This document shows positions 11,667 to 26,661 of a stretch of 64,000 nucleotides of DNA, piece by piece (positions within the stretch are counted from its first letter, which is position 1; every line of letters begins with the position of its first letter). Location: positions 1 through 64,000 of the IMG/VR virus record IMGVR_UViG_3300020473_000013. One strand, given 5' to 3'. The notes below the pieces were generated by a model. The model ran no database searches, was not told the origin of the DNA, and saw nothing but the letters and a program-made list of their open reading frames with translations. The position numbers and the translations under genes are program-made. Origin of the DNA: a virus.

Positions 11667-12476
11667 TCACATGTCTTCGACGTTTTCTGTGGGGTAGTGT
11701 CTGTTAGCCCCCCATATTAAACGGACGGCTCCCGAGCGACCGGGACTGCCAGGTTCAACCCAATTGCTGCTTCCAGAATAGCCTCCGCCTCCGCGGCCAT
11801 ACCCTCCTGCATCGTATCGTCCGTAGACTCCTATCCCTGTGCCGTAAGAGTTGTTAGAACCTACGTAGTTACCCGCGCCTCCGCCGTAACCTGCTCTCGA
11901 ACTTACGTGGCTGCCATCGTTATACGTTCTTTGACCGTCCTGCCCATCTCCTCCACCAATGAGATCGACGATAAGCGGCGTACCTCCGCCTCCGCTGCCT
12001 CCGTTTCCGCCTCTGCTTGCACCTCGCTGGCCTCCGTGCGCTTCTATAATTACGAGTCCGTTATGTTCTATGCTGCTAGTGCCTCCGTCTCGCCCTACGA
12101 CAATCTTCAAACTGTCTCCTTCCGAGACCGGAAACTCCCAAATCCAACGTAGAGCACCGCCTCCTCCTCCTGCACCCTTGTACGCACTGTATCCGCTACC
12201 TCCATCACCTCCCCCTCCTATAACGACACCAGACATGAACGGAACGTCTTTCGGGACGTCCATATAATACGTCCCGGGTGCTGTGTACTTTGCCTGCCCT
12301 ATAGGAATAGGCTTAACGGGAACGTCGCTCCAGTCTCCTCGGCTCGACAGCTTGAAGATGGTGTTATTAACAACAAGCTGGTTAGGAGAAGGAGAATTTG
12401 GTAGCTCTTCCGTAGTTGGAATCCTAAATTCCTTTAGGGTCCCTCCTATTAGCTTTGTGTCTCCGTCGTGTATCAT
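11667..12476 (-). CDS. Fibre-array protein: docking module plus glycine-rich head (type B)
   Basis: A 269-residue protein, last of the fibre array. Residues 1-50 carry the array's shared N-terminal module (D-x-K-L-I-G-G, then LPNSPSPNQL and a W-S-D-V-P end). Next comes a T-A-P-G-T-Y strand and a V-P-x-x-V turn. A glycine-rich domain (about 75-245) is typical of phage fibre tips that form polyglycine sandwiches. It ends with the shared signature RLIWG-x-x-R-x-Y-P. The ATGA junction couples it to the preceding gene. It is probably a receptor-binding tip; there is no direct evidence for the ligand. Confidence 0.75.
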   Translation of the reverse strand: MIHDGDTKLIGGTLKEFRIPTTEELPNSPSPNQLVVNNTIFKLSSRGDWSDVPVKPIPIGQAKYTAPGTYYMDVPKDVPFMSGVVIGGGGDGGSGYSAYKGAGGGGGALRWIWEFPVSEGDSLKIVVGRDGGTSSIEHNGLVIIEAHGGQRGASRGGNGGSGGGGTPLIVDLIGGGDGQDGQRTYNDGSHVSSRAGYGGGAGNYVGSNNSYGTGIGVYGRYDAGGYGRGGGGYSGSSNWVEPGSPGRSGAVRLIWGANRHYPTENVEDM

Positions 12477-12805
12477 ATATCACCTGTGTTCGTCGTAGGA
12501 AACGCCCTGTCATCACCCCAGATTAAGCGAAGCCCTCCGTGTCCATATCCGCCTCCGCCGAAGTGTTGGTTTCCTACATAGGAGCTATCAGAGGGATCGG
12601 AACCTCTATACCCTTGTCTGTTGGCGCCTGCTCCACTAGGACCCTCGCCGTTCAAACCAACACCTCCACCTGTTTGACTGTATGCTCCTGAACTGCCCGA
12701 ACCTCCTCCACCTGAACCAGCACGCCCGTCGGAGTAATCGGTTCCACCGGCACCGCCATTACCTGAGTAACCTCCTGCGCCGCCTGAACCTCCGCGTCCT
12801 TTACC
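12473..12805 (-). pseudogene. In-frame continuation after a TGA stop
   Basis: This stretch continues the upstream gene in exactly the same frame after the TGA at 12806-12808. It encodes 110 more residues of glycine-rich sequence ending in the family signature (RLIWG then F-P-T-T-N). It has no credible start or ribosome site of its own; the longest separate frame begins at TTG. It is either the remnant of a gene cut by a nonsense change (GGA to TGA is the simplest path in this Gly-rich context), a read-through extension, or a sequencing error. Confidence 0.6.
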
Positions 12806-13456
12806 TCAACGGCCATTAGCTCCGCTACCTCCATCACCTCCTCCATCATTAGCCTGGAGAGCGTTCTTACCTCCCAGCCCTCCTGCGCCACTTTGTCCCG
12901 AAGAGCTGCTGTTTTTGGGAGCGCCTTTGCCTCCGCCTCCTAGTACGAGTATTTCATCCGTAGACGGACGGCGTAGAAAAGTGTCACCTCCATCCTCACT
13001 GTCTCTATTATACGTGCCAGATGCACCGTAGTCTCCGACGACAACTTCAAGTTCTTCGCCTGGCTCCACGTCTATGTAGTTACGATAACCTAGGCCACCA
13101 CCACCTGCGCCGCCTCCGTACCAGTAAAGACCGCTCCCATAAGGATTGGGACCTCCCTGCCTGTTAGGTCCTCCGCCTGCACCAACCGCTACACCGTTTA
13201 TACGTGGAACGCCATTCGGTACGATAAACGTGTATGTACCGGGCGAGGTGAACTCAATTTGACCTGGGGGTATTGGACGCGTCGGAATAATTGACCACCC
13301 TCCTTCCTCTGCATTGGACGGGTCGGCTCGGCGCAAAGCTCCGTTATACACCTTTAGCAGGTTCGGTGGAGCATCTGCAGGAAGATCGGTTGTTTCTCGA
13401 ACAGATAAGTCTTTTATTGACCCGCCTATAAGACGAGTCTCTCCTTCATTTATCAT
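12806..13456 (-). CDS. Fibre-array protein with glycine-rich head (type B), truncated by TGA
   Basis: A 216-residue product. It has the N-terminal docking module (L-I-G-G-S-I-K-D-L, LPADAPPNLL, G-W-S-I-I-P), the I-P-P-G-Q linker, a P-G-T-Y strand, then a glycine-rich domain starting near residue 88. It stops at TGA in the middle of that domain, whereas neighbours run on for another 60-110 residues. Without the TGA the product would be 327 residues and would end in the usual signature. The start ATG overlaps the previous stop as ATGA. Whether the short form folds is doubtful. Confidence 0.7.
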   Translation of the reverse strand: MINEGETRLIGGSIKDLSVRETTDLPADAPPNLLKVYNGALRRADPSNAEEGGWSIIPTRPIPPGQIEFTSPGTYTFIVPNGVPRINGVAVGAGGGPNRQGGPNPYGSGLYWYGGGAGGGGLGYRNYIDVEPGEELEVVVGDYGASGTYNRDSEDGGDTFLRRPSTDEILVLGGGGKGAPKNSSSSGQSGAGGLGGKNALQANDGGGDGGSGANGR

Positions 13457-14337
13457 ACATCACCCGTGTTAGTATTGGGAAAGTGCCTGTCCTCTCCCCA
13501 AATTATACGGACGCCGCCTTTGCCTCCGTCATTAGTGTAGTCACCCGCACCACCTCCGAAGTTGCCTGGCCTCGTGTGGCTACCTCTAGTGCCTCCGGAA
13601 CCGCCGTGGCCTCCAGCGTATGCTCCTGAGGAAGTTCCACCCGAAGCACCGCTAGTTCCCTCTCCCATTAAGCCAACACCTCCACCTCCGCCGCCCCATG
13701 TGCGGTTGTAATAGTAGGAGCCGCCGCCTCCTGCACCACCTCCCGTTCCCGGTAATCGTCCTCGGCCGCCGTCGCCGGAGTAGCCACCTGCCCCTCCGCC
13801 TGAGCCTCGATAGTACATCCCACCGTTACCTCCTCCTATATACGGGGAGAAAGTGGAGCTTCCTAAGCGACCTCCGCCCGATGCGACCAGTAGGTCGGTC
13901 GACCCTCTACGTATGAGGCTGTTGTGTCCGCTACGGCCCCCGTTGCTGCCACTCTCTTTTCCTCCTGCACCAGCAATGATTGTCAATGTTTCACCGGGCG
14001 TGACTTGAAGGAAGTTGCCGTACCTGAGATCGCCTCCTTTGCCTCCTCTCGATTCTCTTATGCCGGCAGCGCCTGCACCTACGCAGACAGCGCAGATAGA
14101 ATAAACGCCGTCTGGAACTGTCCATGAGTATACTCCAGGATCGTCCCACATCACCTGACCGGGAGGAGCTAGATAGGGCGGCAAGTCCTCAAACACGCCC
14201 TCCGACTTTGCACGACGCAACACCCCGTTTAATGCTCCGAGTTGGTTGGGTACTCCTACTTCATTTTCTGCTAAGTCTGGAAGTTTCAAGTCTGCGAGAG
14301 ACCCTCCTACGAGCTGTATCCTTCCGTCATGTATCAT
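13453..14337 (-). CDS. Fibre-array protein: docking module plus glycine-rich head (type B)
   Basis: A 294-residue protein. The N-terminal module (L-V-G-G-S-L-A-D-L, VPNQL) is followed by A-P-P-G-Q, P-G-V-Y and a V-P-D-G-V strand, then about 190 residues of glycine-rich sequence including several GGGG runs. It ends in RIIWGEDRHFPNTNTGD, very close to the ends of the genes at 12473 and 17462. It is coupled by ATGA to both neighbours and GGAGG precedes the start. Likely a fibre tip or adhesin head. Confidence 0.75.
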   Translation of the reverse strand: MIHDGRIQLVGGSLADLKLPDLAENEVGVPNQLGALNGVLRRAKSEGVFEDLPPYLAPPGQVMWDDPGVYSWTVPDGVYSICAVCVGAGAAGIRESRGGKGGDLRYGNFLQVTPGETLTIIAGAGGKESGSNGGRSGHNSLIRRGSTDLLVASGGGRLGSSTFSPYIGGGNGGMYYRGSGGGAGGYSGDGGRGRLPGTGGGAGGGGSYYYNRTWGGGGGGVGLMGEGTSGASGGTSSGAYAGGHGGSGGTRGSHTRPGNFGGGAGDYTNDGGKGGVRIIWGEDRHFPNTNTGDV

Positions 14338-15104
14338 TCTTCAACCTCCAGAATGGGTCTCCAGTCACTGCTGGCCCACGAAGTTAGGTACAGTGAGCTA
14401 TCCGTAAACGAGTTGCGTCCAAGAGCATACGGAGGATACACACCGTGCTGCCGGCCTCCCGAGAGAGTGCGCGTTATCGTGGGGCGGTGGCCGACCGCTA
14501 CTCGTGTCGTGGACGTGTCGAACGAGTCAAACTCTCCAGTATGACACCACACAATTAGGTCCCATTCATCCTTATCAATGAGCCTGACCTTGTAATCAAA
14601 ACCTTTTATGGTGATGCGCGTATCCTGGATAACTCTGGCTTCAGGCCACTGGTCTAACCCGCTGAGGGACAGATAAGAGTCGTTTCCGTATGTTAATCCA
14701 GCTTCGTATAAATCTTCCCAGGCCACTTGAGTGGATACGGGTCCTGTGGGTATGAACAGCATCTTTCCTTCGTGTTCAATTTTCCACCAGAGGTTTACTG
14801 GGGAGACGAGATTACCGAAAGGGAAGACTGCGTGGAAGTCGGAGTATGTTATTAAGTCAGACCCGCTAACGGTTCCAAAATACTTTGAACCGTTATGCCG
14901 TGTAACAGGCGATAGTGCGCCCGGCAAGTTCTTCACTAAATCTCGGATTGCGCTCCAGCCGGACTGCTCGTTAGATCGCTTGAGCTTGTTGCCATGTATC
15001 AAGAGCTGGTTTCTTGGAGGAGAATCAGGTAAGGTGTTTTGTTCCGGCACACGCAGCCGGGCAATTTCCCCTCCTAATAAGTGTGTTTTTCCGTCATGAA
15101 TCAT
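14334..15104 (-). CDS. Fibre-array protein: docking module plus WRPVLE-type head
   Basis: A 256-residue protein. The start at 15104 is chosen because AGGTGAT precedes it and the longer frame would enter the upstream gene. The docking module (L-L-G-G-E-I, LPDSPPRNQL) is followed by a head shared with four genes at 18.8-22.0 kb: a G-x-x-x-x-x-D-L-I-x-x-x-D start, W-x-x-L-Y-x-x-G-L-T-Y-G, Y-K-V-R-L-I, a D-E-W-D-L-I helix, and a final D-W-R-P-I-L-E-V-E-E. The head resembles a compact lectin-like fold but I cannot name its family. Confidence 0.7.
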   Translation of the reverse strand: MIHDGKTHLLGGEIARLRVPEQNTLPDSPPRNQLLIHGNKLKRSNEQSGWSAIRDLVKNLPGALSPVTRHNGSKYFGTVSGSDLITYSDFHAVFPFGNLVSPVNLWWKIEHEGKMLFIPTGPVSTQVAWEDLYEAGLTYGNDSYLSLSGLDQWPEARVIQDTRITIKGFDYKVRLIDKDEWDLIVWCHTGEFDSFDTSTTRVAVGHRPTITRTLSGGRQHGVYPPYALGRNSFTDSSLYLTSWASSDWRPILEVEE

Positions 15105-15108
15105 TCCA

Positions 15109-15768
15109 TCACCTGTTGTTTGTTGCAGGGTCAGCACCGAGAATCCAGTCCCCCGCGCGCAACTCTACCCTAGCACTGCCAGGATTGTTCGCGTTTCCTA
15201 AGCAGTGCTGGAGCGTATCGCCGATAGTAACATAGGGGTTGTTGGTGGCTTGCCGACGCACCCACGTTCCGCCTCCGTACTTGCCGTACTCCTCGTCGTG
15301 TGTGCGCTGCAGGAACACGGGCATCTGGTCCAAGTCGCGCGGTTTCTTGATGAGGACGTAACTGGCGCTGTCCGTGCCCCAGCTCAGGCCTCCGATGTCT
15401 AGCTCAGGCACCTCGTCGGGGCCCCAGTCCTGATCGTTGTTGCGCCAAGACTCAACGGCCGTGTAGTACGCCTCCAGTCCGATCTCCTGCACAGCGGCAC
15501 GGTAGTCCTCCTCATAGCGGATGGAGTGTGCGTTCTCCAACTGGCCTACAACGATGTCAGCCCAACCTTCCGTCTCGTGGTTGATGTGACGAAAGACGAA
15601 CATGGCGCTGGATACAGGAAGTGATACCCAATCGTTATCAGTACGGTGCTGGAGCATATCTCCATTCATCGCAATGGCGTTCTTGACATCTTCAGGAAGC
15701 TGCCCCTTACTAGGAACGGACAGCTCGTCAACGTCTCCTCCTATCAACCGCATCTGATCTATATTCAT
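15109..15768 (-). CDS. Fibre-array protein: docking module plus unique head
   Basis: A 219-residue protein. The N terminus (M-R-L-I-G-G-D-V-D-E-L, QLPEDV, W-V-S-L-P) clearly belongs to the array module. The remaining 165 residues, rich in Trp, Asp and Arg, match none of the other heads in the window. AGGTGA lies before the ATG. It separates two groups of glycine-rich genes. The head may bind a different receptor; function unknown. Confidence 0.65.
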   Translation of the reverse strand: MNIDQMRLIGGDVDELSVPSKGQLPEDVKNAIAMNGDMLQHRTDNDWVSLPVSSAMFVFRHINHETEGWADIVVGQLENAHSIRYEEDYRAAVQEIGLEAYYTAVESWRNNDQDWGPDEVPELDIGGLSWGTDSASYVLIKKPRDLDQMPVFLQRTHDEEYGKYGGGTWVRRQATNNPYVTIGDTLQHCLGNANNPGSARVELRAGDWILGADPATNNR

Positions 15769-15776: not shown

Positions 15777-16433
15777 CTAATACGCCAAAACTATTATGCC
15801 GCGGTCACCGTCGGTGTCTTCGGCCCCGCCGTTCCCTGCTTTGACAAGTCCTATTACGGGGACGTTTCCTTCTGCTCCCGCGCCGGGGGAGAATCTCGAA
15901 GGAGGAGGATTGCCGTTAGCTACATTGCCTTCACCGCCAGAAGCTACAGAGGTTGAGTTTCTGCCAGCCTGACCGCCGCCGGCTAAAGCGTGCTGTTGAC
16001 CGTTGTGCGTGACATAGGAAGAGCCTCCGCCTGAGCCCAAGTAGCTGTTCCTCCAATTTACTTCACCGCCTTTACCTACAGTCAAACTGATCTGGTCGCC
16101 AGGCTCAACGTCTAACTGTGCGTAAGACAAACCTCCGCCGGCACCTGCTACCCAGTTAGCACTACCGCTTGAGTTATAGTTGACGCCTGCACCGCCGCCT
16201 CCACCACAAGCAACGAACAGAGCGTACACGTTATCCGGCACCGTAAAGGTTGTTGAGGAAAAGAAGGATGCTTTAGCCGCAACAAAATCCCAGTCGTCGT
16301 TGCGTCCGACCATGAGCATTCCGTTGCTGCGACCTATAAACCCTAGAACTGGAGTCTCAGGCATGGAAGCTACATCCGGAATTCGGATGTAACCCATCGA
16401 GCCTCCTATCAGATTGGCATTCTCAATATTCAT
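15777..16433 (-). CDS. Fibre-array protein: docking module plus glycine-rich head (type B)
   Basis: A 218-residue protein. The ATG at 16433 is preferred to an upstream TTG since the docking module starts there (N-L-I-G-G-S-M) with GGAG ten bases before. After the module, an F-T-V-P-D-N-V strand leads to a glycine-rich domain of about 140 residues with a V-E-P-G-D-Q-I and V-G-K-G-G core. It ends in GIIVLAY rather than the LIWG signature of its neighbours, so it is a divergent member. Confidence 0.7.
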   Translation of the reverse strand: MNIENANLIGGSMGYIRIPDVASMPETPVLGFIGRSNGMLMVGRNDDWDFVAAKASFFSSTTFTVPDNVYALFVACGGGGGAGVNYNSSGSANWVAGAGGGLSYAQLDVEPGDQISLTVGKGGEVNWRNSYLGSGGGSSYVTHNGQQHALAGGGQAGRNSTSVASGGEGNVANGNPPPSRFSPGAGAEGNVPVIGLVKAGNGGAEDTDGDRGIIVLAY

Positions 16434-16440: not shown

Positions 16441-17460
16441 TCACTCCGCAATTTTGGTCACAGAAACCGTTCCGTGACTCGTGCCAACGCGGTTCTGTCT
16501 GATAACATTCGTTGCGCTCTCGCCAATAAAAGAAGTGCTGTACGATGTTCTTCCTCTGTACTGAGCTGCACCCGTAGACTCGGAACCTCCAGAGAAGCCT
16601 CCTCCGCCGGAACAGTACTGGTTGTGTACGTTGGAGCCGCGACCTCCGCCTCCTCCAAAGCCTCCGTCTCGTGTTCCAGTTCCACCCCATGCTAATTCCG
16701 ACAGACTGAGCCCTCCATTGTCCTGCGGCGCATTAGAGAACCAGCTACCTCCTGGTCCTCCTATATCGACCCTACCGCCGGCCACATAGTAAGGGTCTCC
16801 GGCGGTAAAGGCGGTAGCGTCCACGATGTTTGGCGCTCCACCGTCGCTGTAGTTGCCTCCTCCTGCACCCCCTCCTGCTAGGATCAACGGGAACGTCTGA
16901 CCTTGTATCTGTGCAAAGGAGGCGCCTCCTCCTGCACCTCCTCCTCCTTGACTGCCTGTTCCGATTCCTCCGTTGTCTGCACCTGCTTGACCTACGACGA
17001 TACGCAATTTGTCACCTTTACTGAGCAGGAACACTCCTTCCAGCATGGCTCCGTGCCCGAAATGATTGTACGCTGCAGGTCGCCCTCCTCTAGCTCCGAC
17101 TGCACGGATTCGATATGCACCGTCTGCAGGGATGGTCCAAATTTGGGAGCCGTTCTGAACGTCGAAAAAGAGAGAGTCGTTAGCCCAGACAGATGCTTCA
17201 TCACTGGTATAGCTTGTCACGCACTGAGTCAGTGTTGGTCCGTATCTTCCGGTCGATCCTGCCGTTGTAAATGTGTGTGATGAGAACTCGAACAGTCCTG
17301 CTGTTGTAGGTAGAAGAACTACCTCTCCGCTTTGTCCGTTCTTAAAGCCTATTGAACCTTGCGATGCGACGATTGCTCCCGGCAATTCGTCTCCCTTATA
17401 CGCTGGGATGGAGATACGTCCTATGTCTCCTCCAACCAGTTTAACATCATCAAAATACAT
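16441..17460 (-). CDS. Fibre-array protein: docking module plus ALK/LTK-type glycine-rich head
   Basis: A 339-residue protein starting at the ATG at 17460 after an AGGA site. After the docking module (K-L-V-G-G-D-I-G-R-I) comes F-E-F-S-S-H-T-F-T-T-A-G, G-P-T-L-T-Q-C, Q-I-W-T-I-P-A-D-G-A-Y-R-I, G-A-R-G-G, then L-R-I-V-V-G-Q and P-L-I-L-A-G-G-G-A-G-G-G. This order of motifs matches the glycine-rich domain of the animal receptors ALK/LTK (Pfam ALK_LTK_GRD), known also in bacteria and phages. It is probably a polyglycine-helix head for receptor binding. Confidence 0.75.
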   Translation of the reverse strand: MYFDDVKLVGGDIGRISIPAYKGDELPGAIVASQGSIGFKNGQSGEVVLLPTTAGLFEFSSHTFTTAGSTGRYGPTLTQCVTSYTSDEASVWANDSLFFDVQNGSQIWTIPADGAYRIRAVGARGGRPAAYNHFGHGAMLEGVFLLSKGDKLRIVVGQAGADNGGIGTGSQGGGGAGGGASFAQIQGQTFPLILAGGGAGGGNYSDGGAPNIVDATAFTAGDPYYVAGGRVDIGGPGGSWFSNAPQDNGGLSLSELAWGGTGTRDGGFGGGGGRGSNVHNQYCSGGGGFSGGSESTGAAQYRGRTSYSTSFIGESATNVIRQNRVGTSHGTVSVTKIAE

Positions 17461-17461: not shown

Positions 17462-18244
17462 TCACACGTCCTGTACGTTAGTGGTTGGAAAGGAACGACC
17501 CTCGCCCCAGATAATGCGGATACCGCCGTCATCCCCTGGACTGCCTCCGGATTGAGGCCAACCGCCGTTGCCTCCGCCTCCTGCGATTATGCCGACTTGT
17601 GAGCCTCCACCGGAGCTACCGCCGTAGGATAGGCCGTTGTGATGGCTAGATTCACCTCTATCTCCCGCGTCCCCTGTTTTGTACGTACCCGTACCTCCAG
17701 GACCTCCATCGCCTATCGCGAACATGCCTAAGGAGTCTTCGCCTGCGGTTCCCCCTGAGGCTTGAGTGACGACAGTGTTGTCGGCGTCGCGACGGAAAAT
17801 CGTGTTTCCTCCGTCTGCGTCGGATGAACCGCCGTGACCAACAATAGCAGTGAACGTCTCCCCAGGTTCTACGACAAGGAAGTTCTCGTAGGATTCGCCT
17901 CCGGCTCCGCCGGCTCCGCCTACCTGATCGTAGTAACTGCTCCCTCTATTCGATCCTCCACGGCCGCCTCCGCCGCCTGCTCCTATAACGAACACGCTAA
18001 TCTGCGTGACGCCGTCAGGAACCGTAAATGTAAACGAACCTCCGTTTGCGTAATTGATTTGGCCTGGAGGAATAGGCTTCGTAGGAACGACATCCCACAC
18101 GTTGTCAGGTTTGGCTCTACGTATGGAGCCGTTTTTTACCATAAGCAGATTCTCCTGCGCCACAGAAGGAAGCTCTGGTGTGTTTGGTATAGAGAAGGAA
18201 CGTATTGATCCTCCGGACAGTTTGATACCGCCATCCATATTCAT
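17462..18244 (-). CDS. Fibre-array protein: docking module plus glycine-rich head (type B)
   Basis: A 260-residue protein with the docking module (K-L-S-G-G-S-I-R-S-F, LPSVAQENLL), a P-T-K-P-I-P-P-G-Q linker almost identical to the gene at 12.8 kb, F-T-V-P-D-G-V, then a glycine-rich head. It ends in RIIWGEGRSFPTTN. AAGGTGA precedes the ATG. Close similarity to the 12.8 and 13.5 kb genes suggests duplication within the array. Confidence 0.75.
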   Translation of the reverse strand: MNMDGGIKLSGGSIRSFSIPNTPELPSVAQENLLMVKNGSIRRAKPDNVWDVVPTKPIPPGQINYANGGSFTFTVPDGVTQISVFVIGAGGGGGRGGSNRGSSYYDQVGGAGGAGGESYENFLVVEPGETFTAIVGHGGSSDADGGNTIFRRDADNTVVTQASGGTAGEDSLGMFAIGDGGPGGTGTYKTGDAGDRGESSHHNGLSYGGSSGGGSQVGIIAGGGGNGGWPQSGGSPGDDGGIRIIWGEGRSFPTTNVQDV

Positions 18245-18255: not shown

Positions 18256-18837
18256 CTAAGTTTCGTAGACCGCTCCGTCCACAGCGCTTATCTGCATGTG
18301 ATCTAAATTAGGTCCGCTACTTCCGGTGGCCTGTAAGCGAATCGTGTTGGTTCCTATCTCCAGATTGACCCTATGTGTTTCGGTCGTCCACTGTAGCGCC
18401 GAACTGCTATAGTTGCTCAGCGGAACCCGTTTCACTTTCACGCCGTTGATATACAGGTCCTGAGCACGATTGTCGATGGCGTAGCGGAACGTCAAGTCAA
18501 ACGGACCCGCGGCCAGCGACGGAACCTGCCATTCTACGTAGGCATCACGAGTTGCGGTGTAGTCGAAGAAGCCGCTGCCTGTGTACCCCGAATGGTTGTT
18601 CGTTACGTTTCCGCCTTCCAGTCTGTGCGCGTCCTCTGCCTCGTACACTCCGACCGGAGCATCGCTTTCTGGATCGAACCCCAAAACGACAGGAATAGGT
18701 TCCCACCCCTGGGAATCTCGAAACGCTTGAATGTTTCCGTACTCGACCCTCAGCGCGCCAGGGTCTGTCGGGCTCGTGGAAGGCAATGCTAGTGCTTCGA
18801 TGTCTCCTCCGCTGAGCGTCAACTTGTCCAGTTTCAT
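18256..18837 (-). CDS. Fibre-array protein: docking module plus CBM6/35-like lectin head
   Basis: A 193-residue protein. The docking module (L-S-G-G-D-I-E-A-L, W-E-P-I-P) precedes a compact beta-sandwich. That domain begins YEAEDA, continues with G-S-G-F-F-D-Y and Y-V-E-W-Q-V, then L-Y-I-N-G-V-K-V and T-I-R-L-Q-A-T-G, and ends N-L-D-H-M-Q-I. This series is the hallmark of carbohydrate-binding modules of families 6/35. The head should therefore bind a surface glycan, which supports a host-recognition role for the whole array. Confidence 0.8.
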   Translation of the reverse strand: MKLDKLTLSGGDIEALALPSTSPTDPGALRVEYGNIQAFRDSQGWEPIPVVLGFDPESDAPVGVYEAEDAHRLEGGNVTNNHSGYTGSGFFDYTATRDAYVEWQVPSLAAGPFDLTFRYAIDNRAQDLYINGVKVKRVPLSNYSSSALQWTTETHRVNLEIGTNTIRLQATGSSGPNLDHMQISAVDGAVYET

Positions 18838-19688
18838 GACATCAACTCCAGGACTGGTCTCCAGCCGTTGTAGGTAGTTCGACCAGAGCCGGTGAATCCG
18901 CTACCTGTAGCCCACGCCGAAGTGATTCCGTATCCTCCGCGCTTCAACCAAGCGTTGTCGCGCATCCTATACGACTCCATGCAGTAAGCCCACTGGCCGA
19001 CTAATCCGGCGTTATCGGCGACGCCTAGATCGACTTGGGAGTAATCTGCTAGGTTGCCCAAAGACTGGGAGGCTGGAACTGAGGCACACAGCCGGTATAG
19101 CAGTCGATTCCATTCAGACCCAAGAGACTCGTCGGTATCGTACCCTGTACTAGCGTTAAAGGAGTCGGAACTCGATCCCCTTAGGAGGCGCACCCTGTAG
19201 AGATCACCGTTTATCTCAACGGTAGCATCCTGTAGCACAGGAGAAGAAGGTGGGTAAGGTCCGTAAGTGTTGTCTCCGTGGACAGCTCCAACATTGTATA
19301 TGTCAAGCCACGACACATCGTTGCGTAGAGCACGCTGAGGAAGGAACACCACCTTACCATCTAATGCACATTTGAGCCAAGGGTAGCTGTCATAAATGGA
19401 ATTACCCTGAGTAAGACCTATGGACTGGGCCAAAGAGCTGCCTGAGATAAATTCTGTTGGAGCAACCTCGCCAAAGAAACCGGCGGCCATGTCTCCAGCG
19501 ATCAGTTCGGCAGGACCTACACCTAGGGACGCGGACGGAAGCGAGGACCATGCCTGGTTACGCTTTACCTTAACATTGCCCCCGTTAATGCAGATTCGAC
19601 CCAATGAAGGACTCTCGGGCAGCGCAGGTTCTTCGGGCACGGAAACGTTCATATCGCCTCCCACCAGTTTTGTTCTGTCTATGATCAT
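18834..19688 (-). CDS. Fibre-array protein: docking module plus WRPVLE-type head
   Basis: A 284-residue protein; the ATG at 19688 forms an ATGA overlap with the previous stop and is preceded by GGAG. Docking module: K-L-V-G-G-D-M, LPESPSLG, W-S-S-L-P. Head: A-G-F-F-G-E-V, W-L-K-C, V-S-W-L-D-I-Y, Y-R-V-R-L-L, S-E-W-N-R-L-L-Y and a final W-R-P-V-L-E-L. It is one of four adjacent paralogues; the strongest differences are in loops between these motifs, as expected for variable binding surfaces. Confidence 0.72.
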   Translation of the reverse strand: MIIDRTKLVGGDMNVSVPEEPALPESPSLGRICINGGNVKVKRNQAWSSLPSASLGVGPAELIAGDMAAGFFGEVAPTEFISGSSLAQSIGLTQGNSIYDSYPWLKCALDGKVVFLPQRALRNDVSWLDIYNVGAVHGDNTYGPYPPSSPVLQDATVEINGDLYRVRLLRGSSSDSFNASTGYDTDESLGSEWNRLLYRLCASVPASQSLGNLADYSQVDLGVADNAGLVGQWAYCMESYRMRDNAWLKRGGYGITSAWATGSGFTGSGRTTYNGWRPVLELMS

Positions 19689-20389
19689 TCTACTAGCTCC
19701 AAGACGGGTCTCCAACGTAGGTATTGGTACCCGTTGGAACTTGCGACATTCGGATTACCGCGGTTGGCGTAGTTGTTATCTCCTAGCAAACAGGTGCTAT
19801 ACAGGTTGTCTCCAACGTCAATCTCGGCAGGGTCGTAGGACGCCCAGCGCTGGTCAACAGATACCGGGCTGTCGCTGCTGATCATATACATTAGGTCGTC
19901 CCATTCCTGGTCAGTTAGGAGGCGTACCTTGTATGTATCCGAACCTATAGCCAGTGTGGTGTTACCGTACACCAAATCCTTGTTCTTGAGAGTGCTCCAC
20001 CCTATATTGTTTCCTGCGTGACTAGCTCGAATAATCATCTTCGAGTAGAACAGGACCTTATCGCTGTGTGCGAACTTCAACCAATCTGTGTCTCCTCCGA
20101 ATAACTTGCCGGCATACATGCCTAGCTCGCCGCAAAGCGTAGAACCGTCGATCAAGTCCAAGTTACTCACTACACCGAAGAAGCCTGCAGACATGGTACC
20201 GCCTATCAGCTCCGAAGCTCCGGGACCTACGAAACCTAGATTAGTCGGCAGGGAGACCCAGGCTTGACCGTGGGCAACTGCTATACGGCCATTGGTAACT
20301 CCTAGTTTATAAGGTTCAGCCTCGCTTACATCGGGAAGCGACATCCTTCCTATATCACCTCCAACCAACCTTGTCTTGTCGAGTATCAT
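19685..20389 (-). CDS. Fibre-array protein: docking module plus WRPVLE-type head
   Basis: A 234-residue protein with its start inside an ATGA overlap after GGTGGAGGA. Docking module: R-L-V-G-G-D-I-G-R-M-S-L-P. The head has S-A-G-F-F-G-V-V, W-L-K-F, Y-K-V-R-L-L, Q-E-W-D-D-L-M-Y and C-terminal L-R-W-R-P-V-L-E-L. It is the shortest of the four adjacent WRPVLE paralogues, missing one of the longer loops. Confidence 0.72.
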   Translation of the reverse strand: MILDKTRLVGGDIGRMSLPDVSEAEPYKLGVTNGRIAVAHGQAWVSLPTNLGFVGPGASELIGGTMSAGFFGVVSNLDLIDGSTLCGELGMYAGKLFGGDTDWLKFAHSDKVLFYSKMIIRASHAGNNIGWSTLKNKDLVYGNTTLAIGSDTYKVRLLTDQEWDDLMYMISSDSPVSVDQRWASYDPAEIDVGDNLYSTCLLGDNNYANRGNPNVASSNGYQYLRWRPVLELVE

Positions 20390-21195
20390 TCCTCCACCTC
20401 CAGTACAGGGCGCCACCCTCTATAGCTGCTTGCATCATCGGCACTTCGGAAGTAAGTATCATACGCAGAATTGACACCATGAAGTAGTCTGTCAGGACCT
20501 TTGGACTCCTGGCACCATGTTTGGCCACTGTTGATAAATCCCATGTCTCTATCTGAGAATGAGGCCCATGTGCCGTCTGTCGTAGGAACGATCAGCTTTG
20601 TCCATTCAGAATCGCTCAAGGATGAATGCCGCGTATCCGTCTCGTCTTGAGCATTTGAAGGATCATCGGACGAACCCGTCAGCAAACGTACCTTATACGT
20701 TATGTTCCCGATTGTCACGCGCCCGCTCTGCCTTCTCTGCGTTCCCGAGGGAAAGCGACCGTACGTGTCGTCGCCGTACACTAGACCTAGCAGGTAAAGC
20801 TGTTCCCAAGATACTCCGGTCTTGATGCCCCGCTGAGCCACGAATAAGGTGCGCCCGTTGTGAGCGTACTTGAACCACATTCCTACTGTATGGTCTTCTA
20901 CGAAGGCACCAGGCACACCCAGCTGGGAAGACAAATCTGAGTAGCTAATTAGATCGCTTTGCGGTATGTGTCCGAAATACCCAACGTCGCTATCACCGAA
21001 CGCTATCTTGGACGGGCCAGGACCTGCACCTAAGAGGGAAGCGGACGGTATGTTGCTCCAATTCAAGTCTTCTGTCGCTACGCCTAGGCTTCCTCCCGCC
21101 ACACCCAATTCGTTGGTACTGGGGTTAGTCGATCTTTCTGGCAAGGATAAAAAATCAACGTCTCCGCCGACCAGTTTCATACGTTCGAGTTTCAT
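20386..21195 (-). CDS. Fibre-array protein: docking module plus WRPVLE-type head
   Basis: A 269-residue protein beginning at 21195 (GGAG upstream, ATGA overlap). Docking module: K-L-V-G-G-D-V-D-F-L-S-L-P. The head shows V-G-Y-F-G-H-I, W-F-K-Y, V-S-W-E-Q-L-Y-L-L-G-L-V-Y-G-D-D-T-Y-G, Y-K-V-R-L-L, S-E-W-T-K-L and Y-R-G-W-R-P-V-L-E-V. The W-x-x-L-Y / Y-G-D-x-T-Y-G stretch is shared with the 14.3 and 18.8 kb paralogues. Confidence 0.72.
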   Translation of the reverse strand: MKLERMKLVGGDVDFLSLPERSTNPSTNELGVAGGSLGVATEDLNWSNIPSASLLGAGPGPSKIAFGDSDVGYFGHIPQSDLISYSDLSSQLGVPGAFVEDHTVGMWFKYAHNGRTLFVAQRGIKTGVSWEQLYLLGLVYGDDTYGRFPSGTQRRQSGRVTIGNITYKVRLLTGSSDDPSNAQDETDTRHSSLSDSEWTKLIVPTTDGTWASFSDRDMGFINSGQTWCQESKGPDRLLHGVNSAYDTYFRSADDASSYRGWRPVLEVEE

Positions 21196-22022
21196 TGTAC
21201 CAACTCCAGAACGGGTCTCCATCCGCAAATATCTGTGTGTGTAGTTGATGACCTGCGCGTCATATCCGACACTCCGTTACATCCTCTGGATATGTAGGCT
21301 CCAGTCCCAGCGCCTTGTTCCTCTTGGCACCAACTATACGTGCCGTGTCCTAATGAAGTGTGGACGTGTAAGTCTCTATCTGAGTATCGTGCCCAATCAC
21401 CGTCAGTAATTCCTTCGGACTCTAAAGTATCGCTTGAACTGATAGATACTCCACTGGCGATATGGTACATCAGACTATTCCATTCCGACCCGTGTGTCGT
21501 GGGCAGATCGTACCCCCAAGGAGGAGATGTTAGGGCAGGATTATAGCGCGATCCACTAGGCAAGCGAACTTTGAACGTTACCCCGTCGATAACCACTTCG
21601 GCCTCTCCGAATACGGCACCTACCGCATCTATGCTGTCCCAACTAAGACCGTAACGCAAAGGTTTTTTAGCGTAGTAAAGGACTTTATTTTTGTAGGAAA
21701 ACTTTAACCACCCTGCATTTGAAAACTGCGAGGTTCCTGAATATAGTCCTATAGCGTCAGACAGGGAGTTTCCGCTAATCAATTCGTCCGCGGCCACCTC
21801 TCCGAAGAACCCAGCCGACGCATCTCCTCCTATGAGTTGTTGGGGACCAACACCGTTACGCTTAGTGTGGATTGTGGTCCAATTGTCGTTCTTGCCCAAT
21901 CTAAGGCCACCTTGGTGTCCGAGTAGTTCGTTCTCTGACACATCGACAGGAAGCGTACTCACATTAGGTACAGATATGTCGGCAATGTCTCCTCCAACCA
22001 ACTTCATTCTATCTAGTTTCAT
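21192..22022 (-). CDS. Fibre-array protein: docking module plus WRPVLE-type head
   Basis: A 276-residue protein and the first of the four adjacent WRPVLE paralogues in transcription order. Docking module: K-L-V-G-G-D-I-A-D-I-S-V-P, with W-T-T-I at its end. Head: S-A-G-F-F-G-E-V-A, W-L-K-F, L-S-W-D-S-I, F-K-V-R-L-P, S-E-W-N-S-L-M-Y, C-G-W-R-P-V-L-E-L. AAAAGGTGA precedes the ATG. It is coupled to the next gene by ATGA. Confidence 0.72.
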   Translation of the reverse strand: MKLDRMKLVGGDIADISVPNVSTLPVDVSENELLGHQGGLRLGKNDNWTTIHTKRNGVGPQQLIGGDASAGFFGEVAADELISGNSLSDAIGLYSGTSQFSNAGWLKFSYKNKVLYYAKKPLRYGLSWDSIDAVGAVFGEAEVVIDGVTFKVRLPSGSRYNPALTSPPWGYDLPTTHGSEWNSLMYHIASGVSISSSDTLESEGITDGDWARYSDRDLHVHTSLGHGTYSWCQEEQGAGTGAYISRGCNGVSDMTRRSSTTHTDICGWRPVLELVQ

Positions 22023-22033: not shown

Positions 22034-23068
22034 TCAATCCAAACGGGTAACTGATACCCAACCGTTACCGCTATTAGAATTGGCTACGTTATGTTGGTTG
22101 GAGCCAGAATTGTAGGAGCCTCCACCGCCTCCTCCGTTACGTCCGTCGGGATTCCCACCAAAATTAGAGTCGTAGTCGCCTCCGCCTCCTCCGGAATAAC
22201 CTCCACCTCCTCCGGCGCCGTGAGAGTCCACGCCTAAGCCTCCTCCTCCGAATCCTGCTTGTTGCTTATAACCGGAGTTGGTAAATCTTCCTGTGAAAGA
22301 TAGCGACTGGCGCATGGACGTCCAGCCTAGAGCACCGTCCGCGTATAAGGCATTTCCGCCGTTTCGTCCTCGGTTGAACAACGACGTAGCCCGAGAAGTG
22401 GTTCCGTCTACAGACGTTGTGCCTCCAACACCTATCAGATTTGCCGTAGAGTAACTGGTGTTGATTATAGCGGAGCCGCCTCCACCGCCTGCTACGATCA
22501 AAGGATTCGAGGCACCTTGCAACCATACGAACGAACCTCCGCCGCCAGGACCGCCTCCATTCGCACGATTACCCTCAATGTTTTCGAGCCCTTCTTGGCC
22601 CACTACAATGCGTAGTTGTTGCCCCTTGACCAGGTCGAAGGTGCCTTCCATGATAGCGCCTTTACCTCGATACGAGTCCGGGACGACTCCGCTAGAGGAG
22701 TTAGGTTTGCCTCCTCTAGCGCCTGCGACTTCTAACTTATACGATCCTGTAGCTGGAACTGTCCACGTCTGAATCCCAGAAGTTACCTCAAAAAGAGTAG
22801 GGTCGTCAGACCAGTCAGAGCTATATGCCGTTCGCAAAGCCTGAGCGCTGGGAGGAAGAGGTCCTGATCTACCTGCTGAGGTGAACACATGGGATGAAAA
22901 AGCGAACAGAGTAGCACCAGGAATGATTGATACTTCGCCTGAATCGTTCACGAACCCTGGGGTCCCTTCTCGAAGGGCGATTTGGTTTTTCTCATTGGAG
23001 TTCGTCTCACGCAATGACAAACCTCTAATAGAGCTGCCTACTAAATTGACCCCGCCTTCAAACTTCAT
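22034..23068 (-). CDS. Fibre-array protein: docking module plus ALK/LTK-type glycine-rich head
   Basis: A 344-residue protein starting at the ATG at 23068 after GGAGG. The short docking module (N-L-V-G-S-S-I-R-G-L) is followed by F-A-F-S-S-H-V-F-T-S-A-G, G-I-Q-T-W-T-V-P-A-T-G-S-Y, G-A-R-G-G, L-R-I-V-V-G-Q, G-G-G-S-F-V and P-L-I-V-A-G-G-G-G-G, then a long Gly-rich tail. The motif order is that of the ALK/LTK glycine-rich domain. The gene follows a terminator, so it may head its own transcript or depend on read-through. Confidence 0.75.
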   Translation of the reverse strand: MKFEGGVNLVGSSIRGLSLRETNSNEKNQIALREGTPGFVNDSGEVSIIPGATLFAFSSHVFTSAGRSGPLPPSAQALRTAYSSDWSDDPTLFEVTSGIQTWTVPATGSYKLEVAGARGGKPNSSSGVVPDSYRGKGAIMEGTFDLVKGQQLRIVVGQEGLENIEGNRANGGGPGGGGSFVWLQGASNPLIVAGGGGGSAIINTSYSTANLIGVGGTTSVDGTTSRATSLFNRGRNGGNALYADGALGWTSMRQSLSFTGRFTNSGYKQQAGFGGGGLGVDSHGAGGGGGYSGGGGGDYDSNFGGNPDGRNGGGGGGSYNSGSNQHNVANSNSGNGWVSVTRLD

Positions 23069-23082: not shown

Positions 23083-23114
23083 AAAAAGGGCGCAGATCAC
23101 GAAGACCCACGCCC
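23083..23114 (-). terminator. Strand-specific rho-independent terminator
   Basis: An 11-bp stem (arms 23088-23098 and 23104-23114, 5-base loop) followed by TTTTT in the minus-strand RNA. Three pairs are G-U in that RNA and would be A-C mismatches in plus-strand RNA, so it works only for leftward transcripts. It lies after the miniprotein gene ending at 23122. Confidence 0.8.
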
Positions 23115-23121
23115 TAGACTA

Positions 23122-23313
23122 TTAGACCACAGGGTCGCTGTCGGTCAACCACTTCCATGTAGACTCGCTGTACATGTACAGGCCAGGAGCGTTGTCGCCA
23201 TCCTGTTGCAACAGGTACACCAGAGCGTTCGCGTCAGGATCAGACGGGAGCTTATCTACGTTATCAGCCACCAGCGTGCTGGGGCCGTCGAACAGTGCGT
23301 TATCTACCAGCAT
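23122..23313 (-). CDS. Miniprotein: stand-alone docking-like module
   Basis: A 63-residue protein; the ATG at 23313 is chosen because AAAGGAG precedes it and the longer frame overlaps the preceding small gene. It has a K-L-P-S-D-P core, then L-V-Y-L and P-G-L-Y-M-Y followed by W-K-W-L. This matches the docking module at the start of the larger fibre proteins, but here no head follows. It is a paralogue of the 65-residue gene at 26658. It could be a spacer subunit, a cap or a chaperone. Confidence 0.65.
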   Translation of the reverse strand: MLVDNALFDGPSTLVADNVDKLPSDPDANALVYLLQQDGDNAPGLYMYSESTWKWLTDSDPVV

Positions 23314-23326: not shown

Positions 23327-23503
23327 TTACGCAGGCATTTGAAGTAAGCGCCATGCAGAATCATGGCAATAGACACACAGACCGTGCTCGTCATGAACAA
23401 ACAACTGGCCCACGAGTGCGCTTTCAGGGAAGGTGGGACCTCCTTCCGAAATCAGTTTAGAATACCGATTGTCCCCTAGATCGGTTACACCGTCGAAGTT
23501 CAT
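23327..23503 (-). CDS. Miniprotein: docking-like module with GLCVYCHDSAW motif
   Basis: A 58-residue gene with a strong ribosome site (TAGGAGGT) and a promoter-like TAATTTA 29 bases upstream. It starts M-N-F-D-G-V and has V-G-Q-L-F-V-H then G-L-C-V-Y-C-H-D-S-A-W-R. The gene at 26865 has the same motif with Ile for Val, so the two are paralogues. The C-x-x-C pair could bind metal or form a disulfide. Its N-terminal pattern again looks like the array's docking module alone. Confidence 0.7.
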   Translation of the reverse strand: MNFDGVTDLGDNRYSKLISEGGPTFPESALVGQLFVHDEHGLCVYCHDSAWRLLQMPA

Positions 23504-23531
23504 GGTTGTGACCTCCTATGTTGAGTCGAGT

Positions 23532-23538
23532 TAAATTA
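23532..23538 (-). promoter_or_regulatory. Candidate phage promoter motif (TAATTTA)
   Basis: An exact minus-strand TAATTTA (in context GATAATTTAAC) in the 45-base gap after the gene ending at 23549, 29 bases before the miniprotein start at 23503. Confidence 0.5.
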
Positions 23539-23548
23539 TCCTGAATTG

Positions 23549-24595
23549 CTAGAGACGGACCACGGATATATAGCCTTCTCCACTGTTTGCTCCGGCTGAG
23601 TTCGATTGGACTTCACCGGCGTTGAAGCTGCCCCCTCCGGTAGGAACAACACCGTTGAGGCGGCCCGACTGTCCGAGCGTTCCGCCTATTCCTCCGCTGT
23701 ATCCTCCTCCGCCTCCTGCACCTGAGTTATCCGTGAAGGCCGCACCTCCTCCGAAACCTCCGTAACCTCTGCCGTAGTTAGGATGGTGTTCAACGCCTCC
23801 GGCAGCTCCGTTCCTCGGAGCGGAGCCCGGGTCACCAGGAGGGTTTCTAATGTGATGCCCTCGCTTTCCGTCCGTTAACCACCCTCCTCCTCCAGAACCA
23901 GTAGAGTATCTACCTATATTAGCTCCGCTGTTCCCTCCGTGTCCAGCAGTTGCCTTAGGTCCTGAACCACCACCGATGCTATTTGTAGGCTCCTCTGTAG
24001 CTGATCCTGGGCCTCCCGCTGATCTTTCGGCATGTCCACCTCCTCCGCCTGCGACAATCAGAGGTTGGACATCTGAGGCGTCAAAGAATACGTATGACCC
24101 GCCTCCGCCTCCTGCACCAAAGTCGGAATTCTGAGACGTTACGGCGCCTCTCTTGCCTACCAAGATTCGTACAGTATCGCCCTTTGACAGCCAAAAGTCT
24201 CCTCGAATGATAGCTCCAGCACCACCTCGATCTCCGCCTCCTTTCGCGCCCGCTGTTTCGATTCTGTACATTCCGGTTTTAGGAACTGTCCATATTTGAA
24301 CACCGTTCTCTACGCGGAACAGCGAAATGTCGGTCGTCCAAATCAAATTCGAGTAAAGCGCCTCGAATACCGAAGGCAAGCTAGCAGTTCTACCTTCACT
24401 GTGCCCTGCGGCAAACACATGAGAGGAAAATTCGTATATGATGGCCGGAGGTAAAGGCAGGTTTTCATTGCCGCGGCGAACAGCAAATTTACCTTGGCTA
24501 AACCCAAGCTCTCCGTTTAAAGCGGGCTCTGTGACAGGTACAGACAGTTTTTGTATGGAGCCTCCACTCAGTCTAATCCCTCCTTCCAGTTCCAT
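23549..24595 (-). CDS. Fibre-array protein: docking module plus ALK/LTK-type glycine-rich head
   Basis: A 348-residue protein. Docking module: R-L-S-G-G-S-I-Q-K-L-S-V-P, then P-L-P-P. Head: Y-E-F-S-S-H-V-F-A-A-G, V-Q-I-W-T-V-P-K-T-G-M-Y-R-I-E, G-A-K-G-G, V-R-I-L-V-G-K, G-G-G-G-S-Y-V and P-L-I-V-A-G-G-G-G-G, then a Gly-rich tail ending Y-I-S-V-V-R-L. The head matches the ALK/LTK glycine-rich domain in motif order. AGAGGT precedes the ATG. A TAATTTA motif follows the gene, so a new unit probably starts downstream. Confidence 0.75.
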   Translation of the reverse strand: MELEGGIRLSGGSIQKLSVPVTEPALNGELGFSQGKFAVRRGNENLPLPPAIIYEFSSHVFAAGHSEGRTASLPSVFEALYSNLIWTTDISLFRVENGVQIWTVPKTGMYRIETAGAKGGGDRGGAGAIIRGDFWLSKGDTVRILVGKRGAVTSQNSDFGAGGGGGSYVFFDASDVQPLIVAGGGGGHAERSAGGPGSATEEPTNSIGGGSGPKATAGHGGNSGANIGRYSTGSGGGGWLTDGKRGHHIRNPPGDPGSAPRNGAAGGVEHHPNYGRGYGGFGGGAAFTDNSGAGGGGGYSGGIGGTLGQSGRLNGVVPTGGGSFNAGEVQSNSAGANSGEGYISVVRL

Positions 24596-24604
24596 ATTAT
24601 ACCT

Positions 24605-25669
24605 CTATAGTCGCGTGATTATCACCTTACCGTGGCCAGGGTTGGCTCCCGTCTGGTTCGTTTGATTACTGCCGGAGTTATAACTACCACCACCTCCACC
24701 TAACTGGTGGTTCGCTCCTGCACCTCCAGAGTACCCGCCACCTCCTGCTCCGCCTCCGGAACTACCGTGCGTAGCTCCGCCTCCTCCAAAGCCTCCATCC
24801 GCAGGACCTTGATAGCTGAGGCCGTAACTCCTATAGATTGTCTGTCCTCCTAGTCCGCCATATCGGAAGGCTCTGGGGCCAGGAGATTTTGTATAGTTGC
24901 TGTGAGAGGAATTTCCGTAAAATCCAGCCCCTGGCTCACCACCCTTGGTATCGTTTAGCGATCCTGCAGCGCCTCCAGACCCTCCTCGACCAAAACCCGA
25001 CGGGCTAGAGTCCCCACCCTTGGTTGAGTTCAATCCGTGCTGTCCGTTTCTAGCTGACCGGCTGGAGTTATCCATACCTCCGCCCCCTCCAGCTATAATC
25101 AAAGGCGAAGAATTGCCGGGGCTTGACCCTATCGCAACGAACGTGCCTCCTCCGCCCGCTGCGGAGTTGTGGTCAGACCGTTCGTAGTCTCCGTCCCCTC
25201 CTCTTTGTCCTACGAGAAGAAGCAATGTGTCTCCTTCCTCTAGCTGAAAATCGCCGGCCATCTTGGCGCCAAGTCCCCCTGTTCGGAGTCCGGACCCTGT
25301 CATCCCTGCTCCACCTTGAGCTCCGCAAACTTCTATCCTATACATGCCTGTGATAGGCACTGTCCAGTATTGGATGCCTCCTTCTACCTTAAAAAGCGAA
25401 GTGTCGTCTACCCAATCCACGCCCGCGTAAGCATTCCTACATTGAGTAAGAGAGGGTCCTGTGCGACCTGAGGCCCCAGCAGCAGTGAACATGTGGTAAT
25501 CGAAGTTGTACAGACCGCGTAAAGGAAGCGGTACCCACGCGTCACCGCGCCCCACACCCAGACCATTCTGCCCGACGCCGAGTTGGTTGTTTTTCACACT
25601 GACCGTCTTACTCGGAATGGTTAAACTTCTCAGGCTCCCTCCTACCAACTTTACCCTATCGTGTTCCAT
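24605..25669 (-). CDS. Fibre-array protein: docking module plus ALK/LTK-type glycine-rich head
   Basis: A 354-residue protein. The start at 25669 is chosen because the docking module begins there (K-L-V-G-G-S-L-R-S-L). Head: F-D-Y-H-M-F-T-A-A-G, G-P-S-L-T-Q-C-R-N-A-Y, G-I-Q-Y-W-T-V-P, Y-R-I-E-V-C-G-A-Q-G-G, L-L-L-L-V-G-Q and P-L-I-I-A-G-G-G-G-G. Of the four such proteins this is the closest to the animal ALK/LTK domain pattern, including G-P-S-L-T-Q-C. The ribosome site is weak. Confidence 0.75.
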   Translation of the reverse strand: MEHDRVKLVGGSLRSLTIPSKTVSVKNNQLGVGQNGLGVGRGDAWVPLPLRGLYNFDYHMFTAAGASGRTGPSLTQCRNAYAGVDWVDDTSLFKVEGGIQYWTVPITGMYRIEVCGAQGGAGMTGSGLRTGGLGAKMAGDFQLEEGDTLLLLVGQRGGDGDYERSDHNSAAGGGGTFVAIGSSPGNSSPLIIAGGGGGMDNSSRSARNGQHGLNSTKGGDSSPSGFGRGGSGGAAGSLNDTKGGEPGAGFYGNSSHSNYTKSPGPRAFRYGGLGGQTIYRSYGLSYQGPADGGFGGGGATHGSSGGGAGGGGYSGGAGANHQLGGGGGSYNSGSNQTNQTGANPGHGKVIITRL

Positions 25670-25680
25670 AGTAACGATCT

Positions 25681-26661
25681 CTACATATTTTCGTGAACGA
25701 AAAACACCTTTCCTGTCAAGGGGTTGCGTACTAACGCGGGCCATCCTATGCGTTCACTCAGTTTATCAGAGGATTCGCCCCATTGTCCGTTGGCTCCACT
25801 AACCAGCCTGTTACTCTCCATACTAAAGAGGCGCTGGGCCGAGTCAGGTTGTTGTACATTCAAGTAGGTCGATCCGCTCTGACTGTACGTATAAAATCCG
25901 TAGCGAGCCTTTCCTGCGAACATAGATAGCTCGGGATGCTCGCCCAAATCCAATGTCAGAGGACCTAATTCAGCACTCGTATTGTACTGAGTGGCGGTCA
26001 CGGTGAAAAGGTTGCCTTGTCGAACAATACGAACGTCAGACCACCTTCCAGACCATCTGGAATATGTGGAAGCATTGATGCCTGCAAGCTCAGTACGCCC
26101 GCTGCTCACCGCCGGATTATAATACGATAGAGCGAACGAACTTCCAGGGATACCTCCTTGGTGCCGAGTAACTAGCAGCATGTGCGGGTTACCGTCAACG
26201 ATGACGGCAGCCATTACCAGGCCTATCATGTCGTCGTCGCTGTTATTCGACGTGAGGCGCGCGGAGAACTCATAGGCTTCGTACTGGTACAGGCTTAGGA
26301 TGGCGTTCGGGGTACCTACGTTTGTCGGCATGACAAAAGACCCGATTCCTTCATCGTAATACCAATCGTCCGCGTACCCTCCGTAGTTCGATCCCGCCTC
26401 ATAGAAGGTAGAACCGTGAGTACGCGGCCATGTATCAAACACGGTTTTCAGACCCGGCGCCGGATTATCCGCCATATACTGGTCTAGTTCGGCATCTGAC
26501 TCAAAAACAAACTCATCGAATTGAGGAAGTTCTTGCAAGGGAAAGGAAGCCAAGCGACCGTTGCTAAACGCCAACTTGTTGCCCGCTTGTACGTCGGGAG
26601 GGCTTTGAACAGTGGGCACTTCCATGTTCTCCATTTTTGTACGCGCCTGCTCGATTATCAT
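25681..26661 (-). CDS. Fibre protein: divergent docking module plus concanavalin-like head
   Basis: A 326-residue protein starting at 26661 (GGAGGG upstream, ATGA overlap). The N terminus is a distant version of the array module (M-E-V-P, L-A-F-S-N-G-R-L). The remaining 265 residues, from F-E-S-D-A-E-L-D-Q-Y-M, are homologous to the C-terminal third of the 1096-residue adhesin at 34898: D-D-W-Y-Y-D-E-G-I-G-S-F-V-M-P-T-N, a D-D-M-I-G-L-V strand, Y-T-Y-S-Q-S and a W-P-x-x-V/I-x-N-P end. It resembles a LamG/concanavalin-like sandwich. Confidence 0.7.
   Translation of the reverse strand: MIIEQARTKMENMEVPTVQSPPDVQAGNKLAFSNGRLASFPLQELPQFDEFVFESDAELDQYMADNPAPGLKTVFDTWPRTHGSTFYEAGSNYGGYADDWYYDEGIGSFVMPTNVGTPNAILSLYQYEAYEFSARLTSNNSDDDMIGLVMAAVIVDGNPHMLLVTRHQGGIPGSSFALSYYNPAVSSGRTELAGINASTYSRWSGRWSDVRIVRQGNLFTVTATQYNTSAELGPLTLDLGEHPELSMFAGKARYGFYTYSQSGSTYLNVQQPDSAQRLFSMESNRLVSGANGQWGESSDKLSERIGWPALVRNPLTGKVFFVHENM

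Follow-up and report, generated by a model that had tools for sequence, protein, structure and literature searches.

Introduction

That one virion can carry several receptor-binding proteins, joined through conserved N-terminal modules and bearing exchangeable heads, is an established principle (PMC10253068, PMC9700779, PMC11414711): phage RaK2 has at least 10 tail-fibre proteins (PMC10253068), and phiKp24 has 14 putative depolymerase tail fibres (PMC9700779). In systems of the CBA120/RaK2 type, the depolymerases are long trimers whose bodies are beta-helices, and branching is provided by gp10-like XD domains. Here we describe a gene array at 11667-26661 of a 64,000-base stretch of viral DNA (the window), bases 1-64000 of the 224,853-base IMG/VR virus record IMGVR_UViG_3300020473_000013, in which consecutive genes encode proteins that open with one homologous module and continue into unrelated heads. 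Like CBA120 (Ackermannviridae; TSP1-4) and the Klebsiella jumbo phages RaK2/phiK64-1 and phiKp24, the array pairs conserved N-terminal modules with exchangeable heads. Unlike the CBA120/RaK2 type, it uses single modules of about 50 residues in 16-19 copies, contains no depolymerase family, and shows no detectable relation to the TSP4 N-terminus. The multi-adhesin principle is known from CBA120, RaK2, and phiKp24; the implementation is new, this plug, this number of copies, and this mix of heads not having been found elsewhere. We consider it probable that the array is a hypervariable adhesin locus in which a docking module of the type found in a neighboring core protein was duplicated and fused to exchangeable heads, with the products serving as virion adhesins.

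A short N-terminal module shared by sixteen consecutive genes

The array spans about 15 kb and comprises 16 consecutive minus-strand genes with the module (starts 12476 to 25669), together with a weak case, the gene starting at 26661. The first 60 residues of the proteins were aligned, and each protein was compared with a hidden Markov model (HMM) built from the others in a leave-one-out scheme with a search space of 1000. The 16 genes matched with E values of 6e-7 to 7e-18 (26-61 bits), the weakest being 22034-23068 (E 6e-7), whereas none of the 200 shuffles made per sequence exceeded 8.5 bits. The gene at 26661 reached 10.3 bits (E 0.036). An initial annotation of the window had proposed that 17 genes share this segment. 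All the gene starts it gave are present, and its limits fit the array proper; the shared segment holds for 16 genes, which align significantly and above the shuffles, and is weak for gene 26661, which had also been described as divergent although it lies on the same minus strand as the rest.

The module is about 50-55 residues long, with the consensus MxxDxxxLVGGxIxxLSxPxxxxxPxxxxxNxLxxxxGxLxxxxxxxxWxxxP; M1, L8, and G10 are invariant, and G11 is nearly so. Its LVGG form and the multiplication of that form were found only in this record: there was no acceptable match in the records of 20 relatives, none was found by a pattern scan of IMG/VR, and no named phage was retrieved with it, the sole match in that search falling within the head part. 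No array protein matched Mtd_N (PF18454) at E 0.1. Module identity was 0.35 within head classes versus 0.29 otherwise (permutation p 0.0005), and no effect of neighborhood on identity was found among the array genes, which suggests that modules and heads were mostly copied jointly after the first fusions. Shuffling of modules among adjacent genes was rejected on the same two results.

Unrelated heads behind the module

The heads fall into at least five unrelated kinds, in agreement with the initial annotation and confirmed by Pfam and PHROG assignments: five are of the Gly_rich_2 type, four of the ALK type, five of the phrog_1062 type, one is CBM6/35-like, and one is an orphan, to which gene 26661 adds a head of the virion/tail-fibre type. 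The proteins are short (193-354 aa), and no match to a beta-helix depolymerase was found in Pfam or PHROGs for any of them. All the genes listed below are on the minus strand.

The phrog_1062 heads are encoded at 21192..22022 (E 1e-46), 20386..21195 (E 1e-40), 19685..20389 (E 7e-25), and 18834..19688 (E 4e-46), with a divergent member at 14334..15104 (E 8e-19). They match proteins of phiKZ-like phages annotated as virion structural, and by analogy with these homologs the array products would be expected in the virion. In a Foldseek search, the protein of 21192-22022, whose AlphaFold model has a mean pLDDT of 90.9, matched a PhiPA3 virion structural protein (E 6e-22); for a C-type-lectin/formylglycine-generating-enzyme (FGE) fold of the phrog_1062 heads, the best Protein Data Bank match was a weak one to FGE (E 0.06, TM-score 0.21). 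The phiKZ-like proteins (PhiPA3 gp79-82 and the related proteins phiKZ gp083 and those of 201phi2-1 and Noxifer) are members of this head family, judged by sequence and by predicted fold, and, as in the array, are multiplied within a genome, but they have other N-termini and no LVGG-type module.

The Gly_rich_2 heads (PF21722) are encoded at 17462..18244 (E 5e-11), 15777..16433 (E 3e-9), 13453..14337 (E 8e-9; also phrog_4474, E 5e-59), 12473..13456, which has an in-frame TGA, and 11667..12476 (E 1e-5), the last array gene. The curated cut-off of the family was passed by five array proteins, one of them TGA-truncated, and by two proteins at a second site described below. These heads match tail-fibre and minor-tail families.

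The ALK/LTK-type heads are found at 24605..25669 (PF12810 E 1.4e-8), 23549..24595 (phrog_22713 E 5e-34; PF12810 E 0.031, below the cut-off), 22034..23068 (PF12810 E 2.2e-11), and 16441..17460 (PF12810 E 1e-5), so that three of the four pass the curated cut-off of PF12810 (ALK_LTK_GRD). In a single-sequence phmmer search against human ALK extracellular structures, residues 58-160 of 24605-25669 matched with E 3.4e-14 over the TNF-like part and the start of the glycine-rich part, a similarity that exceeds mere glycine composition. All four window proteins combine a TNF-like with a glycine-rich part, the architecture of the region of ALK/LTK that binds the ligand. They share these two domains with the human ALK/LTK ectodomain and have no kinase or transmembrane part. 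Among named phages, ALK-type heads occur in four records from three phages.

Of the remaining heads, that of 18256..18837 (PF03422 E 2.6e-6) scored below the cut-offs of both CBM_6 (28.2 bits versus 28.9) and CBM_35 (23.7 versus 28) and should be read as a CBM6/35 resemblance only. The orphan head of 15109..15768, about 165 residues long, has no relative in Pfam, PHROGs, the phage records, or IMG/VR. The gene at 25681..26661 joins its weak module to a head (phrog_21285) in common with the C-terminus of a 1096-aa protein at 34898-38188 (38% identity, E 6e-65).

These assignments bear on whether the products belong to the virion at all. They could instead be released decoys, or lysis-phase or host-surface proteins that share a domain, given that the locus has tail genes to one side and lysis genes (endolysin at 891-1418) to the other and that most of its head families have no tested function. 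The structural annotation of phrog_1062 homologs in several phiKZ-like phages and the tail-fibre and minor-tail matches of the Gly_rich_2 heads argue against such non-virion products, which we regard as very improbable.

The module is related to a conserved core protein

Upstream of the array lies a core protein at 27511..28110 (minus strand; phrog_21918 E 1.6e-62). The profile of the 16 modules scored 35.4 against the N-terminus of phrog_21918, represented by the window protein and 19 relatives, compared with at most 21.5 in 200 column shuffles and 6 and 10 for two unrelated profiles. Three strands are predicted at closely corresponding positions by AlphaFold: residues 33-36, 39-44, and 47-51 in the model of an array protein (mean pLDDT 90.9) and 34-37, 40-47, and 51-56 in that of the core protein (mean pLDDT 83.1). 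The profile match and the common three-strand pattern show that the module is related to a segment conserved in the PaBG/Y3/Yoloswag group of phages. Past its N-terminal ~50 residues, the core protein consists of two W-x-x-x-H-N-L/M-G type domains (score of repeat 1 versus repeat 2, 74.9).

The CBA120 TSP4 anchor was considered as a relative of the module since the core protein repeatedly gave fold matches to TSP4, weak and non-significant at E 0.02; it was rejected because profile comparisons of the module and of the core protein with the TSP4 N-terminus did not rise above shuffles.

A docking role is the best reading of the module because its homolog, the core protein, belongs to the baseplate/tail-fibre cluster and because of the matches of the phrog_1062 and Gly_rich_2 heads. 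We infer docking to the tail or baseplate, binding of the heads to bacterial surfaces, and co-display of the products.

A fixed position with exchanged contents

The minus strand of the window carries a tail/baseplate cluster with several tail-fibre-type genes, including a baseplate wedge gene at 50635-52104 (phrog_219) and a large tail protein gene at 44672-50635 (phrog_14098). It also encodes a conserved virion structural protein at 28185..29894 (phrog_16122 E 1.4e-135), homologs of which occur in 72 phage records. The nearest relatives of this protein among named phages are those of Phage NCTB, at 53% protein identity, and Pseudomonas phage PaBG, at 43%; Erwinia phages Y3 and Yoloswag and Dickeya phage AD1 come next. 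The core protein gene comes next, and the final core gene before the variable locus encodes a conserved 73-aa protein with one H-N-L-G type domain (27277..27498, minus strand), homologs of which directly follow the core gene in NCTB, PaBG, and the relatives L018, L025, and L026. The 28185, 27511, and 27277 homologs and their order are common to the window phage, PaBG, NCTB, Y3, and Yoloswag. Judged by these genes, the phage, which is uncultured, is a jumbo myovirus belonging to the PaBG/Y3/Yoloswag group; PaBG, NCTB, Y3, Yoloswag, and AD1 were named the Lupandier group by the authors of the PaBG study (PMC7412058).

The array occupies the same syntenic position as the variable loci of PaBG, Y3, Yoloswag, AD1, and NCTB, after the homologs of 28185, 27511, and 27277, and several of these loci have 10-16 variable genes; they differ from the array in their protein families, and only some N-termini are alike. 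In NCTB, L017, and L047, the core genes are followed by one gene for 191-192 residues and then by the same small genes and endolysin that lie beyond the array in the window, with no array between. In Y3, Yoloswag, AD1, pEa_SNUABM_5, and L018, about 10-16 other genes stand at the site, and in PaBG, L021, L025, and L026 very large adhesin-like genes. The syntenic position is fixed, and heads have been exchanged between phages. Synteny places the limits of the window's whole variable region at about 27.0 kb and about 3.5 kb.

Leave-one-out comparison within the arrays of Y3, Yoloswag, AD1, and L018 gave no more than partial similarity at the N-termini, and the idea that each relative's array is built on a single N-terminal module of its own was dropped, the values being mostly not significant. 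At the homologous site, L018:13230-20518 and L011:22140-34560 hold 10-15 unannotated genes, several with a motif like LFSGTMPT near residue 30-40 that is not significant as a common module. In L025 and L126, a phrog_1062 head comes after a Gly_rich_2 domain within a single chain at the site, so that head types that are separate in the window are fused there.

In other jumbo phages, phrog_1062 heads are joined to N-termini that are Mtd_N-like or of other kinds. Of nine jumbo-phage records tested, six gave 6-11 matches per genome, some of these matches being pieces of one gene. The contigs 3300037502_002993 (L013, L097, L101, L118, L133, L147) and 3300035492_000331 (L096, L139, L140, L143) have about 10 phrog_1062 matches each and several genes with a common Mtd_N-like N-terminus, a Mtd_N match being present in L139. 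They resemble the array in joining an N-terminal module of about 50 residues to phrog_1062 heads in several genes per genome and differ from it in the Mtd_N-like nature of the module, the mostly dispersed genes, and the one main head type. We note them as a parallel multi-adhesin design. The initial view that such a number of heads is without precedent among described phages therefore needs qualifying, given the 14 fibres of phiKp24, the at least 10 of RaK2, and the numbers of matches to one head family in uncultured jumbo phages.

Beyond the array, a minus-strand gene at 8576..9652 encodes the conserved protein phrog_12249, a homolog of which adjoins the core genes in PaBG and L026. Since clade-syntenic genes lie on both flanks, a chimeric assembly is unlikely. 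Directly after the array, a minus-strand gene at 10495..11586 encodes a protein with RCC1 repeats of the beta-propeller type (PF00415 E 1e-57); this protein was absent from the matches to the array-module profile in a search of the whole record, and we mention it as a further possible head that lacks the array module.

Headless modules and a second module site

Four small minus-strand genes encode the module without a head. Pair A precedes the array at 26865..27035 (56 aa) and 26658..26855 (65 aa), open reading frames of which the first aligns with the N-termini of a conserved 192-aa protein of the relatives and the second overlaps gene 26661 by 4 nt. Pair B lies inside the array at 23327..23503 (58 aa, with 44% identity to the first gene of pair A) and 23122..23313 (63 aa; phrog_22757 E 8e-7). 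A DNA-level comparison of pair A with pair B found nothing. All four headless genes can be aligned to the N-terminal part of a protein of 182-203 residues, which nearly all syntenic relatives keep at this locus, and the module profile scored 26.5 against the headless/192-residue family (shuffles, at most 13.3).

A profile search of the whole record revealed two further module genes, on the plus strand at record positions 187056-188233 (E 5e-10 and 1e-3), both with Gly_rich_2 heads and about 160 kb from the array. They lie between genes for a NAD-dependent DNA ligase and a beta-1,4-glycosyltransferase, some 3 kb ahead of the gene for the head maturation protease.

CBM and Gly-rich heads are common decoration and adhesion domains. 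The modules might accordingly bind the phage head or the 'hairs' of the tail surface, decorating the capsid or the whole virion with heads that confer adhesion of a weak and general sort, whether to mucus, biofilm, particles, or cells, instead of specificity for a host receptor. The placement of the second module pair in the head-gene region and the hairiness of relatives, Y3 and AD1 having been described as 'hairy Myoviridae' (PMC6143709), make a location on the head surface or on whiskers the main rival to tail docking. Because the main array comes after the baseplate/tail-fibre cluster and carries a module similar to one of the core proteins encoded there, we consider such decoration unlikely.

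Layout and expression of the array

Adjacent array genes overlap by 4 nt at 6 of the 16 junctions; most other junctions are gaps of 1-11 nt, and three are longer or split by additional small genes. The initial annotation had described ATGA overlaps at nearly all junctions and concluded that the proteins are made together. Neither point is supported: besides the count of overlaps, there are two strong minus-strand terminator-like hairpins, both consensus matches only, one between the core genes and the array (27217..27244; 11-bp stem then TTTTT) and one within the array (23087..23115; 12-bp stem then TTTT), so that a single transcript is not to be assumed. In one gene, 13456, an in-frame TGA (12806-12808) truncates the product to 216 aa; beyond it the same frame stays open as far as a normal end at 12473, overlapping the next start. 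The TGA may be a nonsense mutation, a strain variant, or a sequencing error.

Terminator-like sites inside and before the array, a nonsense codon, and headless modules are what one would expect of a cassette reservoir in which display is limited at any time to one or a few heads and the others form a silent or low-expressed store, used via recombination between module copies. Such a reservoir is improbable in our judgment: most array genes have a ribosome-binding-like sequence of their own and intact frames, the modules group by head class and not by neighbor, and their DNA is too diverged for easy homologous recombination, the direct-repeat search having found only short matches at 60-75% at the module starts.

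The array genes have a lower G+C content at third codon positions (GC3, without Gly, Met, and Trp codons) than the other genes of the window (0.52 versus 0.64, p 6e-5), which fits a separate history. A diversity-generating retroelement targeting the array was rejected, as no reverse transcriptase (RVT_1) match was found across the 224,853-base record, which may be incomplete, with positive controls.

Discussion

We favor the following course of events for the adhesin locus. A module like the one that opens core protein 27511-28110, about 50 residues long, would have been duplicated, and the copies fused to ALK-type, Gly_rich_2, phrog_1062, CBM-like, and orphan heads. Each module would plug into the type of tail or baseplate site used by the N-terminus of the core protein itself, the heads would bind bacterial surface components, and the headless modules may fill, cap, or tune unused sockets. 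A more specific version is mixed display: the module, copied at least 18 times from a core tail protein, would place unrelated heads, four of them resembling the ALK ectodomain, in competition for sockets, each particle carrying a random set and the headless plugs setting the dose. We hold this version to be unlikely.

Several points weigh against the adhesin-locus interpretation. The published gel-band proteomics of PaBG (14 proteins) could not be mapped onto the locus (PMC7412058). That the module has the same function in the core and array proteins is an assumption. The N-terminal module of the other conserved protein of the cluster, 28185-29894, was not significant in profile comparison and was rejected as a relative of the array module. 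The two terminator-like sites and the one nonsense mutation suggest that the array genes are not always co-expressed, and the proximity (about 3 kb) of the second module pair to the gene for the head maturation protease makes a head-surface location possible.

If the adhesin-locus interpretation is right, the array is a very compact natural plug-and-play adhesin system, with a module of about 50 residues on at least five kinds of head. The adjacent core protein hints at the source of the plug, the headless forms are built-in controls, and the module is a short candidate tag for protein display on phage. Four proteins like the ALK ligand-binding region in one phage bear on the origin of the TNF-like/glycine-rich domain pair. 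The locus would also offer a testable model of how jumbo phages may widen, or gamble on, their host range.

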